A stretch of DNA of 41,610 nt from Omnitrophica WOR_2 bacterium RIFCSPHIGHO2_02_FULL_48_11 (lineage in GTDB: Bacteria > Omnitrophota > Gorgyraeia > Zapsychrales > GWA2-47-8). Below, in pieces: positions 16,068-25,354 of this stretch. How positions within the stretch are numbered: the stretch's first letter is position 1; each line of letters starts with the position of its first letter. The stretch spans positions 40,824 to 82,433 of the forward strand of contig MHGP01000057.1 in assembly GCA_001805615.1 (NCBI GenBank), read 5' to 3'. Under the pieces are notes generated by a model that did no database searches, was not told where the DNA came from, and saw only the letters and a program-made list of their open reading frames with translations. The position numbers and the translations under genes were made by a program.

Positions 16068-16751
16068 TCAGTTTTCTTTTAAGAATTTTTCCATATCCTC
16101 AGGAAATGAGGCTTCCACCACGATTTTTTTATGCGAGACCGGATGCTGCCATTCGATCTGGGCGGCGTGCAATGCCACCCGCCGAAAACGCAGCTCATAA
16201 TCACGGCCAAAAGCGTATTTGCGCTCCCCCAGCAAAGGATGCCCCAGTTCGCTGAACTGGATCCGGATCTGGTTGGTGCGTCCGGTGAGCGGCATAACCT
16301 CTAAAACACTGAACTTCTTTTTCACTTGCAGAACATTATAGCGGGTCAGGGCGAATTTTGCTGAAGAATTCTTTTGATATTTTTTCTGATCAAGATCACG
16401 AATATAACTTCTCAGTTCACCGCTGCCGCGGTTCAATTTACCGTGGATAAAGGCAATATACCTTTTCTTGACCTGCATTTTTTTGAACTGATGCATAACG
16501 AGCGTCTGATTCTTCTCCCCCTTGGCAAAAATAATGACGCCGGAGGTCTCGCGGTCAAGCCTGTGGCAAGGGAGCAATTTTTCAGAACTTCCAGAGTTTT
16601 TAAATTGAATATTGGCGAGCGTGGCGAGCGTATTTTTTTCTCGGGCAGGAGTGGGAACAACCAAAAGTCCGGCAGGCTTATCAAAGACAACCGTACAATC
16701 ATCCTCGTAAAGGACAGGAATGACTCGGTTGGGACTCTTATCGTGGGACAT
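16068..16751 (-). CDS. RluA-family RNA pseudouridine synthase
   Basis: 227 residues, with the RluA catalytic block HRLDRETSGVIIFAK (catalytic Asp in HRLD) and the later motifs GRTNQIRIQF and GHPLLGERKY. It isomerises uridine to pseudouridine in rRNA or tRNA. There is no N-terminal S4 domain, as in the short RluA and TruC-like members, so the exact target cannot be named. AAGG lies just upstream of the ATG. Confidence 0.93.
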   Translation of the reverse strand: MSHDKSPNRVIPVLYEDDCTVVFDKPAGLLVVPTPAREKNTLATLANIQFKNSGSSEKLLPCHRLDRETSGVIIFAKGEKNQTLVMHQFKKMQVKKRYIAFIHGKLNRGSGELRSYIRDLDQKKYQKNSSAKFALTRYNVLQVKKKFSVLEVMPLTGRTNQIRIQFSELGHPLLGERKYAFGRDYELRFRRVALHAAQIEWQHPVSHKKIVVEASFPEDMEKFLKEN

Positions 16752-16771
16752 ACACCTTAAGACGGCTCCTT

Positions 16772-16933
16772 TTAGGAAGCTTCGTCCTGGGCCTCAAACT
16801 GCTCTTGGAAAAGCTGAGTTAAATAATTGAGTTTACGGATAATAAGAATTGGAAAGACCACGATCCATATCTGAAAGGCCAAAGCCAACAAGGCCTGGAT
16901 CGGGGTAACGCTGAGATTAATAGAATTTTCCAT
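16772..16933 (-). CDS. Small single-span membrane protein, 53 residues
   Basis: Open frame from ATG at 16933 to TAA at 16772, with AAGGA nine bases upstream. The product starts MENSINLSVTPIQ, has one hydrophobic segment of about 20 residues (ALLALAFQIWIVVFPILII), then RKLNYLTQLFQEQFEAQDEAS, probably a short amphipathic cytoplasmic helix. No family is recognised. It is the last gene of the PilZ cluster, 20 bases after PilZ gene 16954-17340, and the gap it fills would otherwise be about 200 bases of empty sequence. Confidence 0.7.
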   Translation of the reverse strand: MENSINLSVTPIQALLALAFQIWIVVFPILIIRKLNYLTQLFQEQFEAQDEAS

Positions 16934-16953
16934 GGATGTTTGTCCTTACATGA

Positions 16954-17340
16954 TCAGGCGGGTTGTTGCTTTTTGTCTTTCCTGAGTTCTTCATGAACAT
17001 AATCGCTGATATAGTCTGCGTCTTTTTTTTGGATATCACTGAAATAAATTGCGGAATGATAATACTCTTGTCCCGGGATAGGCTCACTGCGGACCACGAT
17101 CCCCAGGCAGGATATTTTCTTGGTGACGATCTTGCCGTTTCTTTTTAAGGGAAGCAATAAATGAATCTTGAGCTTAGTCATCGGCTCAACAAATTTATTG
17201 ACCCGGCAATACGCCCCGGTCCGGCTGAGATTACGTGTCTCGGTGACAAAATCCGCTTCTTCCGAAGAGATCTTGACCGGGACAGTATTATCAATCCGAG
17301 GATGCTTACGTCGTTCGTCGTATGATTTTGAGAAATCCAT
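16954..17340 (-). CDS. PilZ-domain protein, probable c-di-GMP receptor
   Basis: 128-residue single PilZ domain. Both c-di-GMP-binding motifs are visible: RRKHPRI near residues 10-16 (the RxxxR arm) and NLSRTGA near 37-43 (the D/NxSxxG loop). The rest is the PilZ beta-barrel and a C-terminal helix. It should bind c-di-GMP in the cytoplasm and pass the signal to a partner. It follows a zinc-ribbon mini-protein by two bases and a second PilZ gene, with the divergent ExeA-like gene nearby. No clear ribosome site; translation may be coupled to the gene before. Confidence 0.9.
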   Translation of the reverse strand: MDFSKSYDERRKHPRIDNTVPVKISSEEADFVTETRNLSRTGAYCRVNKFVEPMTKLKIHLLLPLKRNGKIVTKKISCLGIVVRSEPIPGQEYYHSAIYFSDIQKKDADYISDYVHEELRKDKKQQPA

Positions 17341-17342
17341 GA

Positions 17343-17501
17343 TTATTCTTGAGCCGGCGCGTCTTTGGTTTTATTCTTCCAGCAATTTTTATTGCAATAA
17401 TAATGACCGTTACGATAATATCGTCTGGTCCGCTTCATCGGTTTTTTACAAGAAAAACAATTTTTTAATGTATCTGTTGGTGCTGCCGTTTGTTCAGCCA
17501 T
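17343..17501 (-). CDS. Zinc-ribbon mini-protein, 52 residues
   Basis: Open frame from ATG at 17501 to TAA at 17343, preceded by GGAGTAGGGAG. Four cysteines in the pattern C-x2-C-x17-C-x3-C (residues 15, 18, 36, 40; FSCKK and YYCNKNC) suggest one structural zinc site, and the segment between them is rich in Arg, Lys and Tyr. It resembles TRASH- or MYM-like treble-clef mini-domains, but no family can be named. It sits between the two PilZ genes, two bases before the second. Confidence 0.75.
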   Translation of the reverse strand: MAEQTAAPTDTLKNCFSCKKPMKRTRRYYRNGHYYCNKNCWKNKTKDAPAQE

Positions 17502-17568
17502 AGCAAACTCCCTACTCCTTTCTTAACTTCTTTCTTAACTTCACATCCAATTTTATATGTGTGGGGGA

Positions 17569-17919
17569 TTATTTCGATTGGCGCGTGCCGATGTATTCTT
17601 TGATCACTTCGCGGGATTTCATCATCGAGTCATCGTTATCAAACTTCAAACCGACATGATACCGGTCTGAGTGAGGGACCATTTGAACCCAAACCACACG
17701 CCCATGAAGGCTGAGAACCTTTTCCGGGGATAATTCCATCATGATCGCCAAGGATTCATTGAGCGGGATAAAGTCTTCAGTTTGAAACCGCAGACCCCCC
17801 TCACTTAAATCATAGGCCAGACTGCCGCTCAGCGGAATCAACGCCCCTTTCGAATATCGCAAGGGCTCACGGAATTCCACCCGCTTGAGTCTTCGCTTCT
17901 CTTGTTGAACAACTGCCAT
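17569..17919 (-). CDS. Second PilZ-domain protein
   Basis: 116-residue PilZ domain with RRLKRVEFR at residues 9-17 and DLSEGGLRF near 37, the two halves of the c-di-GMP site. It has a full DxSxxG loop, unlike the neighbouring PilZ protein, which has Asn at the first position. GGGAG precedes the ATG. It is the first gene of a four-gene minus-strand unit (PilZ, zinc ribbon, PilZ, small membrane protein), read divergently from the ExeA-like ATPase. Confidence 0.9.
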   Translation of the reverse strand: MAVVQQEKRRLKRVEFREPLRYSKGALIPLSGSLAYDLSEGGLRFQTEDFIPLNESLAIMMELSPEKVLSLHGRVVWVQMVPHSDRYHVGLKFDNDDSMMKSREVIKEYIGTRQSK

Positions 17920-17957
17920 TCTTTAACTCTCCCTTAAAGTCATTTTAAAGCGGATTA

Positions 17958-17985
17958 ATTATAGCATATTCTTTTGCAGGCACAA
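17958..17985 (-). promoter_or_regulatory. Probable promoter of the PilZ unit
   Basis: On the minus strand TATAAT (17958-17963) is preceded, after 16 bases, by TTGTGC (17980-17985). The leader to the PilZ ATG at 17919 is about 30 bases and contains GGGAG. Confidence 0.6.
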
Positions 17986-18050
17986 TGACTTTTTATTGAC
18001 CTTTGTACACCAAAAATAAAAAAGAAAAGGCCAATAAAACCGACAGTTTC

Positions 18051-18079
18051 TTTACCAAAGCTGGGCAAAGTGGTATAAT
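18051..18079 (+). promoter_or_regulatory. Extended -10 promoter of the ExeA-like gene
   Basis: TTTACC (18051-18056), 17 bases, TATAAT (18074-18079), with TGG directly before the -10 box (an extended -10, TGnTATAAT). Only nine bases separate the -10 box from the ATG, so transcription should start within about three bases of the initiation codon. Confidence 0.8.
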
Positions 18080-18088
18080 CCCAAGCGT

Positions 18089-18910
18089 ATGTATAAGAAA
18101 TTCTACAACTTAAAAGAAAATCCTTTCAACGTCACCTCCGACCCAGCGTTTTTCTTTTCCAGCTCCCGCCACTCCGAGGCCTTTTCGCATCTTGTTTACG
18201 GGATCCAACAGCGTAAAGGGATCATTGTCGTCACCGGGGAAATCGGCACCGGTAAGACGACCCTTTGCCGCACCCTGCTCAACAAGCTTGATCCGACGAT
18301 CAAAACAGCTTTTATTATGAACCCCAATTTTTCCGATGTTCAGCTGCTGCAATTGATGGTTAAAGACCTAGAAATCCATGGGAACTTCAAAAATAAACTT
18401 ACTTTGGTCAGTGCCCTAAACGAATTTCTCATTCACGAAACAAGCCAGGGTCACAATGTCGTTATTATTATCGATGAAGCACAAAATCTTGGAATTAAAC
18501 AACTTGAGCAAATACGCCTGCTGTCGAATTTAGAAACGGAAAAAGAAAAATTACTGCAGATCATTTTGGTAGGCCAACCAGAGCTATACGACAAACTCAA
18601 ACTTCCGGCCCTGCGCCAGCTGCAGCAGCGGATAAGCGTGCGTTACCATATCCTGCCTTTGGACAAATCGGAGCTGGGACAATATATTAACCACCGGCTC
18701 AAGGTCGCCTCAGCCAACGGACTTTCCCTGCCGGGCCTGCAATTCACCGCCAAGGCCGTGGAAACTATTTATCACCTTTCTCAAGGGACTCCTCGGCTGG
18801 TCAATATCCTCTGTGATCGGGCCTTATTAGCCGGTTTTGTGGCAGGGACATTTGCGATCGATGAAAATATCATCCACAAATGTTCACGCGAAATAGGAAT
18901 TATTGCCTGA
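18089..18910 (+). CDS. ExeA/GspA-like AAA ATPase, secretion or pilus associated
   Basis: 273-residue ATPase with the typical ExeA opening (MYKKFYNLKENPFNVTSDP). Walker A GEIGTGKT is at residues 50-57, Walker B VVIIIDEAQNL near 124-134, and a helical C-terminal part includes SQGTPRLVNILCDRALL. In ExeA/GspA, a membrane partner (ExeB/GspB) couples this ATPase to peptidoglycan for assembly of the type II secretin. Here the peptidoglycan-binding C-terminus is absent, as in many pilus- or Omnitrophota-type copies. The next gene is a GspB-like protein, which supports the pair. The mRNA appears leaderless. It heads the only plus-strand unit in the window. Confidence 0.9.
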   Translation: MYKKFYNLKENPFNVTSDPAFFFSSSRHSEAFSHLVYGIQQRKGIIVVTGEIGTGKTTLCRTLLNKLDPTIKTAFIMNPNFSDVQLLQLMVKDLEIHGNFKNKLTLVSALNEFLIHETSQGHNVVIIIDEAQNLGIKQLEQIRLLSNLETEKEKLLQIILVGQPELYDKLKLPALRQLQQRISVRYHILPLDKSELGQYINHRLKVASANGLSLPGLQFTAKAVETIYHLSQGTPRLVNILCDRALLAGFVAGTFAIDENIIHKCSREIGIIA

Positions 18911-18979
18911 AATGTATCGGCAGCCGGCAATTTTGAGTATAAAATAAAAACAACTTTCTCATTTAAAAGGAACCCAAAA

Positions 18980-19726
18980 ATGAGTATTATAAATGATGCG
19001 TTAAAAAAAGCTCAGCACCAGTTCAGCAAAAATAATTCTCAAGAGAAAGCGCAGCCTATGCCCGACCCAAACCCACCCGTGAATCCTCAACCAGCGAATC
19101 CTCAACCCATGAATCCTCAACCAACCAGTCAAAACCCGATAGCAAAACCTGCTCCCCCTCAGCCGGCACCGATGCCTGATATGTCGCAGTACATCCCGGT
19201 GCGCGAGAAGACCAAGCCGGCAGAACCGAAAATATTGTCGGAAGAAATTTCTCCTCCCCGGCCGCAAGATTTAAGAAAACAAGACGGTTCTGAATCACGC
19301 AAACCGAGCGTGACAAAAATATTCCTCACGTTTGTCACCTTCATCCTGCTCGGCTGCGGGATTTTCTTGGCCTTTTATCTTTATAAGATCGAATCGATTC
19401 CCGATGCCCGGAGCCGCGCCAATGCAAAAAAAAACATGGTCAAAGATATTCCTAAACAAATCAACAAGGTCGTTGAATCTATTCCCCTTCCCGAACAAGT
19501 CAAGCAAACGATCTCCCCTTCTACCAAACCGGCCAAAAAAGAAACCGTCCAACAAGGCATTGTGCTCAATGGCATTATGTTAATGGGAGAAAAACGGGTC
19601 GCTTTGATCAACAACAAAATTTACGAAGTCGGGGATTCTATCGACGGGAAAGAAATTTTAAGTATCAGTCCGGAAATGGTCAAGATCAAGGACGGCGAGA
19701 ATATCAAAACTTTGAAAGTCCAATAA
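18980..19726 (+). CDS. GspB/ExeB-like inner-membrane protein
   Basis: 248 residues. It starts with the GspB-type motif MSIINDALKKAQ, then a Pro/Asn/Gln-rich cytoplasmic linker (residues 20-110) with NPQP repeats. One membrane helix follows at about 113-135 (IFLTFVTFILLGCGIFLAF). The periplasmic C-terminus resembles the GspB domain (NGIMLMGEKRVALINNKIYEVGD). The probable role is to link the ExeA-like ATPase to the envelope during secretin or pilus assembly. AAGGA precedes the ATG. It ends six bases from the convergent aroB gene, with no visible terminator between them. Confidence 0.85.
   Translation: MSIINDALKKAQHQFSKNNSQEKAQPMPDPNPPVNPQPANPQPMNPQPTSQNPIAKPAPPQPAPMPDMSQYIPVREKTKPAEPKILSEEISPPRPQDLRKQDGSESRKPSVTKIFLTFVTFILLGCGIFLAFYLYKIESIPDARSRANAKKNMVKDIPKQINKVVESIPLPEQVKQTISPSTKPAKKETVQQGIVLNGIMLMGEKRVALINNKIYEVGDSIDGKEILSISPEMVKIKDGENIKTLKVQ
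19081..19125 (+). repeat. 15-base tandem repeat coding NPQP units
   Basis: Three near-identical 15-base copies beginning GAATCCTCAACC, inside the GspB-like gene. They encode the repeated NPQP linker, so copy number could change the linker length without shifting the frame. Confidence 0.8.
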
Positions 19727-19732
19727 AATTCG

Positions 19733-20827
19733 TTATAACCCCGCGCGGATCGCTTGCTCGATGATCTTCCCGGGGACTCCTTCCATCACCTGCACCGCAC
19801 CAATTTTCGTAGCTAAAACAAACCGATTCCTTCCTGCTATAAACTTTTTATCATGCTGCATGTGTTTTAAAATACCGGAAAGATTGATCATTTTTGTGTG
19901 TGAAGGATTCTTCTCCAAAAGGCCGAAGTCGGTCAACACCCGGCGCAAAGCTGTAAAATCTTTTTTATGCAATAAGCCCATGCGCTGAGAAACTTCAGCA
20001 GCGACCACCATTCCCCAGGCCACGGCTTCTCCATGAAAAAAACGGTATCCGCTGGCTGCCTCCAAAGCATGCCCGGCCGTATGCCCAAAATTAAGAATGG
20101 TCCGAATTCCTTTGGTCTCTTTTTCATCCGCCTTGACGACCTCCGCCTTGATCTGGCTGCAACGCACCACAACTTTTGTTAACGCGACAGATTTGCGGGA
20201 CAAAAGTTGGGCAGAATTCCTCCCGACATAATTAAATAATTTTCGATCGCGGATAACACCGTACTTGATGATCTCAGCGAAGCCATTACGGTACGCGCGG
20301 TCCGGCAGAGTCTTAAGGGTTCCCACATCGCTCCAAACGATCTTGGGTTGATAAATCACACCCACCAAATTCTTCCCCACCGGAAGATCGACCGCGGTTT
20401 TTCCGCCGATCGCCGAGTCCACTTGTGCCAAAAGTGTCGTGGGCACCTGCACATAGGGAATAGCCCGTTTGTAAATCGCCGCCACAAATCCCGCCAGATC
20501 CCCCACCACGCCTCCGCCCAGCGCGATGATAAAAATGTCTTTCTGTGTGTCATAGCGGGCGATCTTTTCCAATAACTGCATGGCGACCTTGGTGGATTTA
20601 CTTTTTTCGCCATCGGGAACTTCAAAAAATTTCACCGTAAATCCATTTCGCGTCAGGCCAGCCGCCAGGGCCGGACCGTGCCAACGGCGAATGACCGGTT
20701 GGGTGATGATCACCGCGTCCCGTCCCATCTTAAGGGACTTTAACGCGGCTCCCAATTGCGGCAGTATCCCATGCCCGATAATGATTTTATAAGGATTGTC
20801 TTTAAGATTGACCAAAACAGTTTTCAT
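19733..20827 (-). CDS. aroB: 3-dehydroquinate synthase
   Basis: Second step of the shikimate pathway, DAHP to 3-dehydroquinate, NAD- and metal-dependent. 364 residues. Seen are the NAD-binding GGGVVGDLAGFVAA, the active-site region PTTLLAQVDSAIGGKTAVD and the metal ligands in NFGHTAGHALE and FFHGEAVAWGM. The ATG at 20827 overlaps the stop of the protease gene upstream (TGATG), with GGAG five bases before, so translation is probably coupled. It is the last gene of a long minus-strand run. Confidence 0.97.
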   Translation of the reverse strand: MKTVLVNLKDNPYKIIIGHGILPQLGAALKSLKMGRDAVIITQPVIRRWHGPALAAGLTRNGFTVKFFEVPDGEKSKSTKVAMQLLEKIARYDTQKDIFIIALGGGVVGDLAGFVAAIYKRAIPYVQVPTTLLAQVDSAIGGKTAVDLPVGKNLVGVIYQPKIVWSDVGTLKTLPDRAYRNGFAEIIKYGVIRDRKLFNYVGRNSAQLLSRKSVALTKVVVRCSQIKAEVVKADEKETKGIRTILNFGHTAGHALEAASGYRFFHGEAVAWGMVVAAEVSQRMGLLHKKDFTALRRVLTDFGLLEKNPSHTKMINLSGILKHMQHDKKFIAGRNRFVLATKIGAVQVMEGVPGKIIEQAIRAGL

Positions 20828-21456
20828 CAAAACTCCACCCCCAATAATCGTCCTAAAATTTGGATCACCGGCATCACGATAAGTTCAAAAGCTCCCAAAT
20901 ATAATAAAACAAAAACGATCAGAATGCCATACCGTTCTAAACGGGCGTACATCCGATCGTACGGCGCCGGCAAAAGCCCGATGACAAGCCGCGAGCCATC
21001 CAGCGGCGGGATCGGAACCATATTGAATGCCGCTAAAAGCAAATTGATAAAAACAGCTAACGTTAAAATGTCTTCACTTCCTCTAAGCACCCCCGAATGC
21101 AAAATCGCGGCAAAAAAAATAGCCAGCAGGATATTGATCGCCGGCCCGGCTAACCCCACCCAAATCACGTCGCGTTTGGGATGGCGCAGCTGGGAAAAAT
21201 TGACCGGGACAGGTTTGGCCCAACCAAAAATAAAAGTTTCATGCCCCATTAACCGCAAGGCCAAAAGCGCTCCAGGCAGTAAGATCGTTCCGACAAGATC
21301 AATATGCTTGAGAGGATTTAAACTTAACCGCCCCGCCAGCATAGCGGTGGGGTCCCCCAGACGATAAGCCATCCACCCGTGCGCATATTCATGAAGAATA
21401 ATCGCCGAAAGAACAAGCAAAGCAACTTCAAGTATTTCAATTAAGGAAATAATCAT
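20827..21456 (-). CDS. Site-2-protease-family (M50) membrane metalloprotease
   Basis: 209 residues, mostly hydrophobic, with the zinc-binding HEYAH at about residues 22-26 in a membrane helix and the second ligand region NMVPIPPLDGSR near 145-156. This is the compact class of site-2 proteases lacking a PDZ domain, and the substrate is unknown. It overlaps the end of the SH3 gene by 20 bases and touches aroB. Its ribosome site is weak (GCGGGG). Confidence 0.92.
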   Translation of the reverse strand: MIISLIEILEVALLVLSAIILHEYAHGWMAYRLGDPTAMLAGRLSLNPLKHIDLVGTILLPGALLALRLMGHETFIFGWAKPVPVNFSQLRHPKRDVIWVGLAGPAINILLAIFFAAILHSGVLRGSEDILTLAVFINLLLAAFNMVPIPPLDGSRLVIGLLPAPYDRMYARLERYGILIVFVLLYLGAFELIVMPVIQILGRLLGVEF

Positions 21457-22029: not shown

Positions 22030-22377
22030 TTATTTTGCGGCCTTGGCTCCGGCAGCTGGCTTCGCAGCAGCTTTCGCATCAGCAGCCTTAGCAGGGGCAG
22101 CCTTCGCTCCGGCTGGGGCAGCTTTCGCTCCAGCAGAGGCAGCTTTTGCATCAGCGGCTGGGGCACCGGCACCGGCGGCAGCATCTGCGGCTTCGTCTTT
22201 AACCTTGATTTTTTTAGATTTGATATGAACGATCTTTGTCTTGGGAAGACCTGTGACGTCATGATTATCCGCCCAGAGATCCTTTTTCATGAGATCTTTA
22301 ATCCGCTCAATGCGCGTTAAAACCGTTCTTTGCTGAGCTCCCGCAAGACCGACCTTAAGAGATGAATGAATTGACAT
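22030..22377 (-). CDS. PVC-signature small basic protein with Ala/Lys-rich tail
   Basis: The first 60 or so residues match the short basic protein considered characteristic of Planctomycetes, Verrucomicrobia, Chlamydiae and relatives: MSIHSSLK, then RTVLTRIERIKDL, then TGLPKTKIVHIKSKKIKVK. The family is thought to be nucleic-acid or ribosome associated, but the role is not settled. Here the core is followed by about 50 residues of Ala/Lys/Pro/Gly (units like AGAKAAPA), like a histone H1-type tail, so the protein is nearly twice the length expected. AGGAG precedes the ATG. The assignment is by recognition of the motifs. Confidence 0.82.
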   Translation of the reverse strand: MSIHSSLKVGLAGAQQRTVLTRIERIKDLMKKDLWADNHDVTGLPKTKIVHIKSKKIKVKDEAADAAAGAGAPAADAKAASAGAKAAPAGAKAAPAKAADAKAAAKPAAGAKAAK

Positions 22378-23079: not shown

Positions 23080-23109
23080 ATTATAGGCTTACCTTTTCAT
23101 GGAACTCAA
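23080..23109 (-). promoter_or_regulatory. Promoter giving a leaderless SPOR-protein mRNA
   Basis: On the minus strand TTGAGT (23104-23109), 18 bases, TATAAT (23080-23085). The ATG at 23073 lies six bases past the -10 box, at the expected transcription start. The promoter overlaps the 3' end of the HD-GYP gene. Confidence 0.65.
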
Positions 23110-24168
23110 GTATTTTCTAAAGATTTTTTGCTTGGCAAGCTCACAGAATGTCTCGACGACCGTCGGGTCGAATTGCGTTCCGCTGTTGCGCCGCAATTCA
23201 TTGATGGCATCCTGGATCGACAAGCCATCCTTATACGGCCGGCCGATCGTCATGGCTTCAAAGGCATCCACGACCGCCATGATCCGCGCGCCCAGGGGGA
23301 TCTGTTCGCGCTTCAAGCCCGAAGGATAACCGGTGCCGTCGTACTTTTCATGATGATACAAAACAATCGGCAACACCGGCTTTAAAAAGGCCACCGGCTT
23401 GATGAGTTCAACGCTTTTGGCGGGATGATTACGGATCACCTTAAATTCCTCCGGCGTCAATTGACTGCGCTTGGAAAGAATTTCATAGGGGACATCGATC
23501 GCCCCGGCATCGTGGAGGATGCTGGCATAATGCAGGCAACTGATCCCATACTGATTCATATGCAATTTTTCCGCCAAGGATTTAACGATTTTAAAATACA
23601 CAGGCGCATGGAGCGAGGCCAGTTGATTCTGCCGGGCCATCAACTTGCCGATAAACTTGATGCTGCCGAGAACCATTTTCTGCTGATCCTCATAAAGCTG
23701 CAGATTTTTAATGGCCGTGACGGACTGCTCGGCGATCACCGCGAGGATGTTTTGATCAAATTCCGTGAAGGCCCGCTCTCCCTTTTTTCGACGGACAAAA
23801 ATAGCCCCCAAGAAATCATCCGCGACCAAAGGCAGCCCGATGAGATGTTTTTCAAAAATCGTTTTTCCGCGGGCCACCCCGTTTTCTTTCTCCGGGATGT
23901 TGCTGATATCTTTTTTCTTATCAAGAAAGATGTTGATCTTATTGTTATAGACCGCCACCGCCACGACCCGCTTCTTTTCCGGATCGAGAATATATATGCT
24001 TGAAGAACTCGCCTTGATAAATTGGCAGAGCAGCCGGGTCAGCCGCAGCGACAACTCTTTGACATTGTAGGTCGAATTCACCAGCCGGTAAACCATGTGC
24101 ACCGCGGAGAGGACCATCTGGTACTTATTATGCTGATGAAATGTTTGTCTGACGCTTAACCCGTTCAT
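23089..24168 (-). CDS. GAF plus HD-GYP domain protein, probable c-di-GMP phosphodiesterase
   Basis: 359 residues. A GAF-type sensor occupies about residues 30-160, followed by an HD-GYP domain. All signature residues are present: H187, H219-D220, H248, HHE at 272-274, DGTGYP at 277-282 and D301. HD-GYP enzymes break c-di-GMP down to pGpG and GMP. The start at 24168 (MNGLSVRQTF) is chosen because the longer frame to 24237 runs into dgt; AAGG lies about 11 bases before it. It would lower the signal read by the two PilZ proteins in the window. Confidence 0.93.
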   Translation of the reverse strand: MNGLSVRQTFHQHNKYQMVLSAVHMVYRLVNSTYNVKELSLRLTRLLCQFIKASSSSIYILDPEKKRVVAVAVYNNKINIFLDKKKDISNIPEKENGVARGKTIFEKHLIGLPLVADDFLGAIFVRRKKGERAFTEFDQNILAVIAEQSVTAIKNLQLYEDQQKMVLGSIKFIGKLMARQNQLASLHAPVYFKIVKSLAEKLHMNQYGISCLHYASILHDAGAIDVPYEILSKRSQLTPEEFKVIRNHPAKSVELIKPVAFLKPVLPIVLYHHEKYDGTGYPSGLKREQIPLGARIMAVVDAFEAMTIGRPYKDGLSIQDAINELRRNSGTQFDPTVVETFCELAKQKIFRKYLSSMKR

Positions 24169-24187
24169 ACGTTCAATACCCTTGGCT

Positions 24188-25354
24188 CTACACTTTTTCG
24201 TAAGGATCAAAGAATCGTTTATGTTCATCCAGCGCATGCCGGTCCGTCATGGAAGCGATATAGTTGCAGATAATTTCATACTCGGCTTTTTGATCATACT
24301 TTTGGTCGCGGTGATAGACCGAATACGGCAGCTGATGCGGATTCTTTTTGTACACCCTAAAAAGATCTTCAATGATCCGCTTGGCCTTGGATGTCATCCG
24401 TTCGACGCGATAATGGTGATAAAATTTCTTATTCAACAAATCCTGCAGATACTGCCGCTGCCGCCCCATCTCGGGACTGAAATCGACATAGACCTTGTTC
24501 TTTTTTCTTACCTCTTCGGCGGATTTAAAATCAGCCGCAGTGATGCGTTCATCCGAAGACGATAACAGATCCTTCACCTGCATGTCGATGAGTTCTTTGA
24601 CAATTTGATACTTTAACATTTCTTTTTCTTTGGAATGAATTACGCATTTGACCCGGGTGAGCGCCGTTTGCCACAACTCGCTGTCGATGAGATCGTCCTC
24701 GGTGATACAGCCGGAGGTGAGTCCGTCGTCCACATCATGATTGAGATAGGCCAAAGAATCAGCGACATCCACCACTTGGGCCTCAAGGGTGAGGTTCTCC
24801 TTGGCAAATTTGTCCGACACGCCGGGGATATCATAAGATGTTTTGTGTTTCAGAATACCGATCAGGACTTCCTGGGAGAGATTGAGACCGCTGAACTCGG
24901 GATAACGTTTTTCAAACTTCGTGACGATTTCAAAGCTGCGTTTATTGTGATTAAAACCCGGCAACCTTGCTTCCTGCATAATGATATTGAGCGCTTCTTC
25001 CCCGGCATGGCCGAAGGGCGGATGCCCCAGATCATGCGCCAAGGCGATCGCTTCGATCAAATCTTCATTGAGCTGCAGACTGCGGCCGATGGTCCTGGCG
25101 ATCTGGGCGACTTCGATGGTGTGCGTCAGGCGTGTTCGGTAATAATCCCCTTCAAAAATGATAAAAACCTGGGTTTTGTATTCGAGCTTGCGAAAGGCTT
25201 CGGAATGGACAATGCGGTCGCGGTCGCGCTGATAGCACGTACGCACCTCGTGGAGGGGTTCTTCGTATTCTCGCCCCGCAGAATTCCGGCTCTTCATGGC
25301 GTAGGGGGCTAAAAATTTTTCTTCTAATGCCTCGATGTCTGTCCGTTTACGCAT
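24188..25354 (-). CDS. dgt: dGTPase-family HD-domain triphosphohydrolase
   Basis: Hydrolyses deoxynucleoside triphosphates, typically dGTP, to the nucleoside and tripolyphosphate. 388 residues. Metal-binding residues are seen in TRLTHTIEVAQIAR, AHDLGHPPFGHAGE and a later VADSLAYLNHDVDDG. The 388-residue length fits the shorter dGTPase-like group; substrate preference among dNTPs cannot be read from sequence. It sits between the HIT gene and the HD-GYP gene. Confidence 0.93.
   Translation of the reverse strand: MRKRTDIEALEEKFLAPYAMKSRNSAGREYEEPLHEVRTCYQRDRDRIVHSEAFRKLEYKTQVFIIFEGDYYRTRLTHTIEVAQIARTIGRSLQLNEDLIEAIALAHDLGHPPFGHAGEEALNIIMQEARLPGFNHNKRSFEIVTKFEKRYPEFSGLNLSQEVLIGILKHKTSYDIPGVSDKFAKENLTLEAQVVDVADSLAYLNHDVDDGLTSGCITEDDLIDSELWQTALTRVKCVIHSKEKEMLKYQIVKELIDMQVKDLLSSSDERITAADFKSAEEVRKKNKVYVDFSPEMGRQRQYLQDLLNKKFYHHYRVERMTSKAKRIIEDLFRVYKKNPHQLPYSVYHRDQKYDQKAEYEIICNYIASMTDRHALDEHKRFFDPYEKV

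Follow-up and report, generated by a model that had tools for sequence, protein, structure and literature searches.

We analyzed a stretch of 41,610 nucleotides (the window) from the genome of Omnitrophica WOR_2 bacterium RIFCSPHIGHO2_02_FULL_48_11 (G000:C57:40824-82433 in our numbering; the assembly has 2.01 Mb and is 86% complete). The locus under study comprises six genes that the first-pass annotation had put forward as a plausible single undescribed module, i.e., a cyclic di-GMP (c-di-GMP)-controlled switch for an ExeA-like secretion or pilus machine. All six reading frames are present in the open-reading-frame list of the window. Four of them form a run on the minus strand: PilZ116 (17569-17919), the first gene of the run, encodes a stand-alone PilZ protein of 116 amino acids (aa); ZR52 (17343-17501), a basic protein of 52 aa with four cysteines that belongs to no curated family; PilZ128 (16954-17340), a second stand-alone PilZ protein of 128 aa, the more conserved of the two; and TM53 (16772-16933), a single-span membrane protein of 53 aa that is nearly specific to the window's order. 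Gaps of 67, 2 and 20 bases separate these genes in that order. Beyond a divergent intergenic region of 169 bp (17920-18088), which lies between the PilZ116 and ExeA starts, the plus strand carries the genes for an ExeA/GspA-like AAA+ ATPase (18089-18910; 273 aa, ATPase domain only) and a GspB-like protein (18980-19726; 248 aa). The components had been named correctly: both PilZ proteins score above the Pfam cut-off, the two small proteins are conserved in relatives, and the divergent ATPase-membrane protein pair is of the ExeA-GspB type, with Walker motifs and a modeled HR fold. It is also correct that this pair holds the only plus-strand genes, as judged by overlap: every other frame on the plus strand coincides in part with one on the minus strand, many of the latter have family matches, and the only tRNA of the window is on the minus strand.

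Relatives were compared in two sets of loci. The first consists of 30 short loci of the window's own order (L009-L038, the window's own counted, with 1.5-kb flanks), and the second of 90 ZR52-positive loci from other orders, hand-picked for family spread. The latter all hold ZR52 by construction and belong to the window's class except for two (G055 and G056), and one of them (L169) repeats another (L164); their denominators are the loci whose contig reaches far enough.

Both PilZ proteins match PF07238 above the cut-off of 22.5 bits (PilZ128, 38.7; PilZ116, 46.6), and YpfA (5vx6, E 3.4e-4) is a solved relative. The c-di-GMP-binding motif of PilZ domains consists of RxxxR followed by [DN]xSxxG. 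This motif is present in 29/29 own-order and 84/85 other-order homologues of PilZ128, and in 24/28 and 71/79 homologues of PilZ116, respectively; if G or A is allowed in place of S, all of these homologues have it. Within PilZ128, the motif residues R11, R15, N37, S39 and G42 are invariant in 28 aligned rows. Thus, both proteins are probable c-di-GMP receptors, as judged from these motifs. They share the domain and the motif with known stand-alone PilZ receptors, but here two different PilZ genes flank a conserved small putative zinc finger. We found no description of such a PilZ-zinc finger-PilZ trio in the literature searched, nor anything there on Omnitrophota with cyclic di-GMP; in the main text of a genome survey of the phylum, PilZ and c-di-GMP have zero occurrences (PMC10066038).

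ZR52 and TM53 are not chance reading frames: of 54 relatives, counting the genome of the window, 47 have ZR52, and of the 30 own-order loci, some of which end at a contig edge, 22 have TM53. In a phylum sample of 384 genomes, ZR52 is present in 271, and in 267 of these as a single copy. No Pfam or NCBIfam family matches it above cut-off. The cysteine spacing is C-x2-C-x17-C-x3-C, and the C-x2-C...C-x3-C site is found in 29 of the 30 own-order loci (the single miss is a contig end) and in 88 of the 90 others. The core can be written as NCxxCxKxxKRxxRYYR[ND]GK[YF][YF]CxKxC[WFY]; in the window copy it spans 34 residues, with 12 K/R and no D/E. The predicted model (pLDDT 73) consists of a hairpin and a helix, whose arrangement looks like that of a treble clef. 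Compared by sequence with solved structures, ZR52 comes closest to the TRASH domain of ZMYM5 (2das, profile E 0.0016), although this match is weak. Comparisons with the model are weak as well: L24e/Rlp24 chains lead the VIA list (Z up to 4.9, 41 residues aligned, rmsd 3.3), the ZMYM5 TRASH domain reaches Z 4.3, all Z values are below 5, and the Foldseek matches listed all have E above 0.2 (0.23 or worse). These weak matches suggest reading ZR52 as a basic treble clef of the TRASH/L24e type; the L24e family itself is absent among the Pfam matches of 27 aligned ZR52 members. Like TRASH/MYM/L24e zinc fingers, ZR52 has a C-x2-C and, in the predicted model, a hairpin and a helix with a C-x3-C. Unlike them, it is a stand-alone basic bacterial protein of 50-60 aa below Pfam and NCBIfam cut-offs, and some of its lineages lack most of the metal ligands. 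For example, the homologues of one family, at 8 loci (L257, L258, L260-L265), lack three of the four cysteines; in another family, G084 (L195) has lost three with ZR52 still within the trio, and in G056 (L185) a single cysteine is lost. The Cys-poor families keep the KRxxRYYRNGKYY hairpin, and K20, R30 and G32 are invariant in a comparison of 16 rows. Because the cysteines are lost while the hairpin and these residues are kept, the zinc would be structural and the basic hairpin is the likely working surface. Some of the 8 Cys-poor loci adjoin apparent biotin, lipid-A, fatty-acid and RNA-modification enzyme genes (named by eye). ZR52 was also considered as a fusion partner in long frames, and this was rejected: by eye, the extra parts are low-complexity tails rich in K, E, A and P with no second recognized domain. 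A scan of named genomes with a single PilZ128 peptide pattern returned 26 loci, of which 25 are titled Omnitrophota or Omnitrophica and one Planctomycetales.

TM53 contains a single hydrophobic span (maximum KD19 2.69), and seven of its positions are invariant in an alignment of 22 rows (M1, Q13, W23, F27, P28, K34 and N36, alignment A3); neither Pfam nor NCBIfam gave a family match. Outside the window's order it was found at 1 of 75 loci. The gene that follows PilZ128 in other orders is usually DUF4416 (for example, L170:7444-8001, plus strand); in the window's order, a search of 35 genomes found DUF4416 in none, and TM53 occupies the position instead. No paper on DUF4416 was found in the literature searched.

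The ATPase of the divergent pair has a Walker A motif (GEIGTGKT), a Walker B motif (VIIIDE), and a PF13401 match of 99.3 bits. It also matches the XrtA/PEP-CTERM ATPase family TIGR03015 over its whole length, with 281.2 bits, below the cut-off of 324.5. No clear membrane span was found in its 273 aa (maximum KD19 1.51), and the peptidoglycan-binding domain PF01471 is not among the best 25 of the 42 families matched. The partner protein scores 12.9 bits against T2SSB (PF16537), below the cut-off of 28.4. It begins with a helix, MSIINDALKKxQ, that is conserved as MSxIxxALKKxQ (alignment A7), and has one span from about residue 114, followed by a disordered linker and a C-terminal domain modeled with six strands (pLDDT about 96). 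This domain resembles Dickeya GspB (4wfw; Foldseek probability 1.00, E 0.014; VIA Z 7.3), the HR domain of GspC (3oss; Z 9.5, 57 residues aligned, rmsd 2.6), and PilP (2y4y; Z 8.7, 57 aligned, rmsd 1.7); none of the E values from Foldseek is as low as 0.001. By this model, the C-terminus is the secretin-binding HR fold of GspB, GspC and PilP. HR domains of this kind are reported to bind the secretin N0 domain, and most bacteria to have gspA and gspB as neighbors (PMC9239104); another study lists mshM as ExeA-like (PMC4624765). As in GspA-GspB (ExeA-ExeB) of type II secretion and MshM-MshN of MSHA pili, an AAA+ ATPase is encoded beside a single-span HR protein. Two differences from GspA-GspB stand out. 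The window ATPase has no clear span and shows no peptidoglycan-binding match, as reported for Alteromonas GspAs, which lack the periplasmic region (PMC9239104), and the pair lies next to aroB, apart from the secretin operons that we found in the genome.

In the window's order, the entire block from AAA570 to DnaE, housekeeping genes included, is colinear. PilZ128 was found in 29, PilZ116 in 28, and ExeA in 19 of the 30 short loci. Since the whole block recurs, synteny within the order has little power to reveal a module, and we rejected it as module evidence: the six-gene arrangement is conserved, so that the first-pass annotation is not refuted on this count, but equally conserved are the housekeeping genes around it. 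We therefore turn to the places where the block is broken. There are 32 own-order loci with at least 5 kb upstream, 31 of them distinct because L054 is the same as L250. Of these, 16 have ExeA, GspB and AroB together, and 15 lack all three within reach; among the latter, 8 keep the PilZ116-ZR52-PilZ128 trio and 7 have a solo Cys-poor ZR52. With those 7 left out, 24 distinct trio loci remain, of which 16 have ExeA, GspB and AroB and 8 have none of the three within 4-6.5 kb.

In other orders, ZR52 has PilZ128 within 3 kb downstream at 75/79 loci and PilZ116 within 2.5 kb upstream at 68/80. ExeA is found at 38/75 loci, GspB at 45/75, and AroB at 57/73; genes of the window block downstream of TM53 were not found at all (Rlu, 0/75; MazG, 0/74; UvrB, 0/71). 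Where AroB is present (57 loci), 35 loci have ExeA, 8 have GspB alone, and 14 have neither. Where AroB is absent within 6 kb (16 loci, with the repeat L169 and L176 among them), PilZ128 is present at 14, PilZ116 at 10, and ExeA within 4 kb at 2, both of family f30. It should be noted that ExeA lies beyond the 4-kb limit at L054/L250 (about 6 kb away) and L176 (about 5.7 kb), and that the use of gene-centre distances shifts some counts (18 rather than 16 loci without AroB, PilZ116 at 67 rather than 68 of 80), with AroB of L109 and L181 near the limit. In four split genomes (G121 and G182 of the same genus, G129, and G080), ExeA-GspB remain beside AroB, apart from the trio. Because the other-order loci, the own-order loci and the split genomes agree, we conclude that ExeA-GspB behave as companions of aroB. 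The break between PilZ116 and ExeA is frequent, and PilZ116-ZR52-PilZ128 is the best-persisting element of the locus. At eight loci (L095, L096, L110, L112, L143, L144, L158, L165), GspB stands beside aroB with ExeA not within 4 kb. An apparent second copy of the trio in G182 (L169, G182:C10), considered as a duplication of the unit, was rejected: over 9.9 kb it shares 99.6% identity with G121, and it is probably assembly contamination or redundancy.

The genome that holds the window has type II/IV secretion genes, whose absence would likewise have refuted the first-pass annotation: there are 5 secretin matches and, above cut-off, 11 type II/IV ATPase matches, along with 15 PilZ and 6 GGDEF matches. 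On contig C41, a secretin operon consists of PilM, PilN (weak), PilO, a gene of 132 aa, and a secretin with an N0 domain, followed by an RNase E/G gene. Another secretin operon, on contig C75, includes an ExeA-like gene of its own and a GspC/GspB-like gene. A third ExeA-like gene is on contig C58, flanked by a Wzz/GNVR gene on one side and a ParA-like gene on the other; this third copy would be a likelier member of TIGR03015 than the window ATPase. By elimination, ExeA-GspB of the window could serve the C41 secretin. In five relatives (G271, G210, G202, G242 and G336), an ExeA-GspB pair directly follows a secretin gene, and the trio loci of these genomes lack ExeA-GspB; the operon of G271, for example, reads N_methyl, PilX_N, PilM/PilN, secretin, ExeA, GspB. 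In the ExeA tree, the five secretin-linked sequences group as a single clade (100/100) that falls within the trio/aroB-linked set and is separate from the C75 paralogue; the exact place of the clade in that set is weakly supported. Because these pairs follow a secretin and nest in the trio/aroB-linked set, the ExeA-GspB pair of this lineage belongs, in these five genomes at least, to a secretin and pilin operon. Type IVa pili are reported in most classes of Omnitrophota (PMC10066038).

These results lead us to favor, with confidence only a little above even, an ancestral neighborhood of two separable parts, i.e., a secretin-assembly pair and a c-di-GMP effector trio. Its direct basis is the gene content, the motifs, the folds (for ZR52, weakly), the breakpoints, and the presence of the ExeA-GspB lineage in a pilin/PilM/secretin operon of relatives. 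In the mechanism we propose, the ExeA ATPase at the inner membrane and the periplasmic HR domain of GspB would help to place a secretin, and their likely partner would be the type IV pilus (PilMNO-secretin) machine, for which the genome has genes at another place. PilZ116 and PilZ128 would bind c-di-GMP, and ZR52, made between them, may be their adaptor or output, if the three proteins associate. The trio is thus probably a c-di-GMP receptor unit, by its motifs, beside the secretin-assembly pair and not demonstrably controlling it. What is conserved and undescribed at the locus is this trio, rather than a c-di-GMP switch acting on ExeA.

Several observations weigh against the two-part reading. 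The trio is not indivisible: 11 of 18 genomes in which no ZR52 was found (18 of the 20 listed negative genomes were tested; 113 are negative in all) have a PilZ128-profile match at E <= 1e-8, although the one in G149 is weak and has a higher score as a PilZ116; ZR52 is missing in G043, a genome from the window's order, so that one PilZ gene directly adjoins the other; in four f11 and f31 genomes, PilZ128 stands beside ExeA-GspB with AroB and without ZR52; and the 8 Cys-poor ZR52 loci are away from any recognized PilZ gene. Adjacency within the trio (66/85 for PilZ128-ZR52, and 63/79) is not exceptional compared to other neighbor pairs, since local synteny is generally high in the phylum (AroB-M50 adjacent in 39/39, SPOR-p115 in 52/52), and PilZ128-DUF4416, adjacent at 60 of the 71 loci that hold both, is as tight as PilZ128-ZR52. 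The assignment of PilZ116 outside the window's order can be confused with PilZ paralogues. The long-branched C58 copy, of the EPS type, also falls inside the trio/aroB set, so that the nesting in the ExeA tree is to be read with care. Finally, we asked whether the trio correlates with secretins or with the synthesis of c-di-GMP and dropped the comparison as uninformative, because GGDEF domains are present in 71/71 and secretins in 48/48 of the genomes tested and do not discriminate.

Three other explanations were considered in detail. In the first, ZR52 is a housekeeping binder of nucleic acid, perhaps of the ribosome, and its place between PilZ genes is mostly positional. Its wide single-copy distribution, the acid-free basic core, the lead of L24e/Rlp24 among the structural matches, the loss of cysteines in two families with the hairpin kept, and the 8 loci with no recognized PilZ gene nearby are all as expected for such a protein; against this, the structural matches are weak, no L24e family appears in the Pfam matches, and PilZ128 follows ZR52 within 3 kb at nearly all other-order loci. 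We regard this explanation as tentative, with a minor share of the probability. In the second, the locus is ordinary block synteny, with no functional coupling beyond slow genome rearrangement. The colinearity from AAA570 to DnaE and the other neighbor pairs, which are adjacent as often as the trio or more, fit this explanation, but other-order loci keep the trio while the window genes downstream of TM53 are not found, and ZR52 still has PilZ128 with it at 14 of the 16 loci that lack the AroB block; this explanation is thus unlikely.

The third is the single six-gene module of the first-pass annotation, in which c-di-GMP-bound PilZ, ZR52 and TM53 switch ExeA-GspB on or off. The divergent arrangement, seen in 16 of the 24 distinct own-order trio loci, and the divergent ExeA within 4 kb at 38/75 other-order loci speak for it, as does PilZ128 beside ExeA-GspB in 4 of 9 larger ZR52-less other-order loci (L234-L237 of L234-L242), all four of which also have AroB. 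Elsewhere, DUF3391 domains accompany HD-GYP domains. Published parallels are the DUF3391 domain borne by Alteromonas GspBs (PMC9239104) and the MshE of Vibrio cholerae, in which c-di-GMP acts on a pilus ATPase (PMC4624765). Conversely, ExeA-GspB follow aroB and not the trio; the trio persists without them at 8 of the 24 own-order loci; 14 AroB-positive other-order loci hold the trio or ZR52-PilZ128 without ExeA and GspB; G159, G156 and G089 have ZR52-PilZ128 and no ExeA match in the genome at E <= 1e-20; TM53 is nearly order-specific; and DUF4416 is the usual gene after PilZ128 elsewhere. A direct regulatory link between the trio and ExeA-GspB is possible, but the linkage data favor otherwise, and the six-gene switch appears doubtful. 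Still less probable, in our view, is a phylum-specific L24e/TRASH-like nucleic-acid binder gated by the flanking PilZ receptors, which would connect c-di-GMP to gene expression or translation and in some lineages would have lost its zinc and left the PilZ locus while keeping the basic hairpin.

The neighboring genes are as follows. An RluA-family pseudouridine synthase (16068-16751, minus strand; PF00849, 104.7 bits) follows TM53 after 20 bases and is part of the syntenic block, outside the proposed unit. AroB, a 3-dehydroquinate synthase (19733-20830, minus strand; PF24621/PF01761), is the neighbor that ExeA-GspB follow. A GAF and HD-GYP protein (23089-24237, minus strand; HD_5, 146.1 bits) is encoded 3.4 kb beyond the GspB end; measured from the divergent promoter, the distance is about 5 kb, as originally given. 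HD-GYP phosphodiesterases have the motifs HDxGK and HHExxDGxGYP. Read directly, the window protein has an intact HHEKYDGTGYP, and HDAGA in place of HDxGK; it scores 128 bits against NF053512, under the cut-off of 400, and is by its domains a likely c-di-GMP phosphodiesterase. In three f22 genomes (L238, L239 and L240), an HD-GYP gene lies directly upstream of a PilZ116 homologue on the same strand. Upstream of ExeA, a promoter-like site (TTTACC-17-TATAAT, a match to consensus only) ends 9 bases before the start codon, and for this reason the ExeA message may be leaderless; there are 13 promoter-like sites in 16700-19760, versus 4.8 +/- 1.8 in shuffled sequences.

Several side observations concern c-di-GMP domains elsewhere. 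In the window genome, a pilus/secretion ATPase of 755 aa (G000:C76, L226:6815-9079, minus strand) combines an N-terminal MshEN and a C-terminal PilZ domain in one frame, i.e., two c-di-GMP-type modules on a single motor, and a PAS-domain histidine kinase (G000:C64, L232:5242-7239, plus strand) has a C-terminal PilZ domain. GGDEF-profile matches occur within giant open frames of two related genomes (G156:C2 near 82064, 70,450 aa; G129:C2 near 444880, 42,913 aa). In the window itself, positions 22030-22377 (minus strand) encode a small basic protein of TIGR04137 (65.3 bits, cut-off 50); the name of this family refers to Chlamydia and Verrucomicrobia.

The striking divergent six-gene picture is mostly inherited block synteny. 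The locus also draws attention to ZR52, an unannotated gene that is present in the majority of the genomes sampled from an uncultured and little-known phylum and is tied to probable c-di-GMP receptors, and the trio offers a small, expressible target of three proteins. Some relatives have the ExeA-GspB of this lineage in linkage with a pilin/secretin operon. Because type IVa pili have been proposed for attachment to host cells in Omnitrophota (PMC10066038), the assembly and tuning of these pili are of interest.

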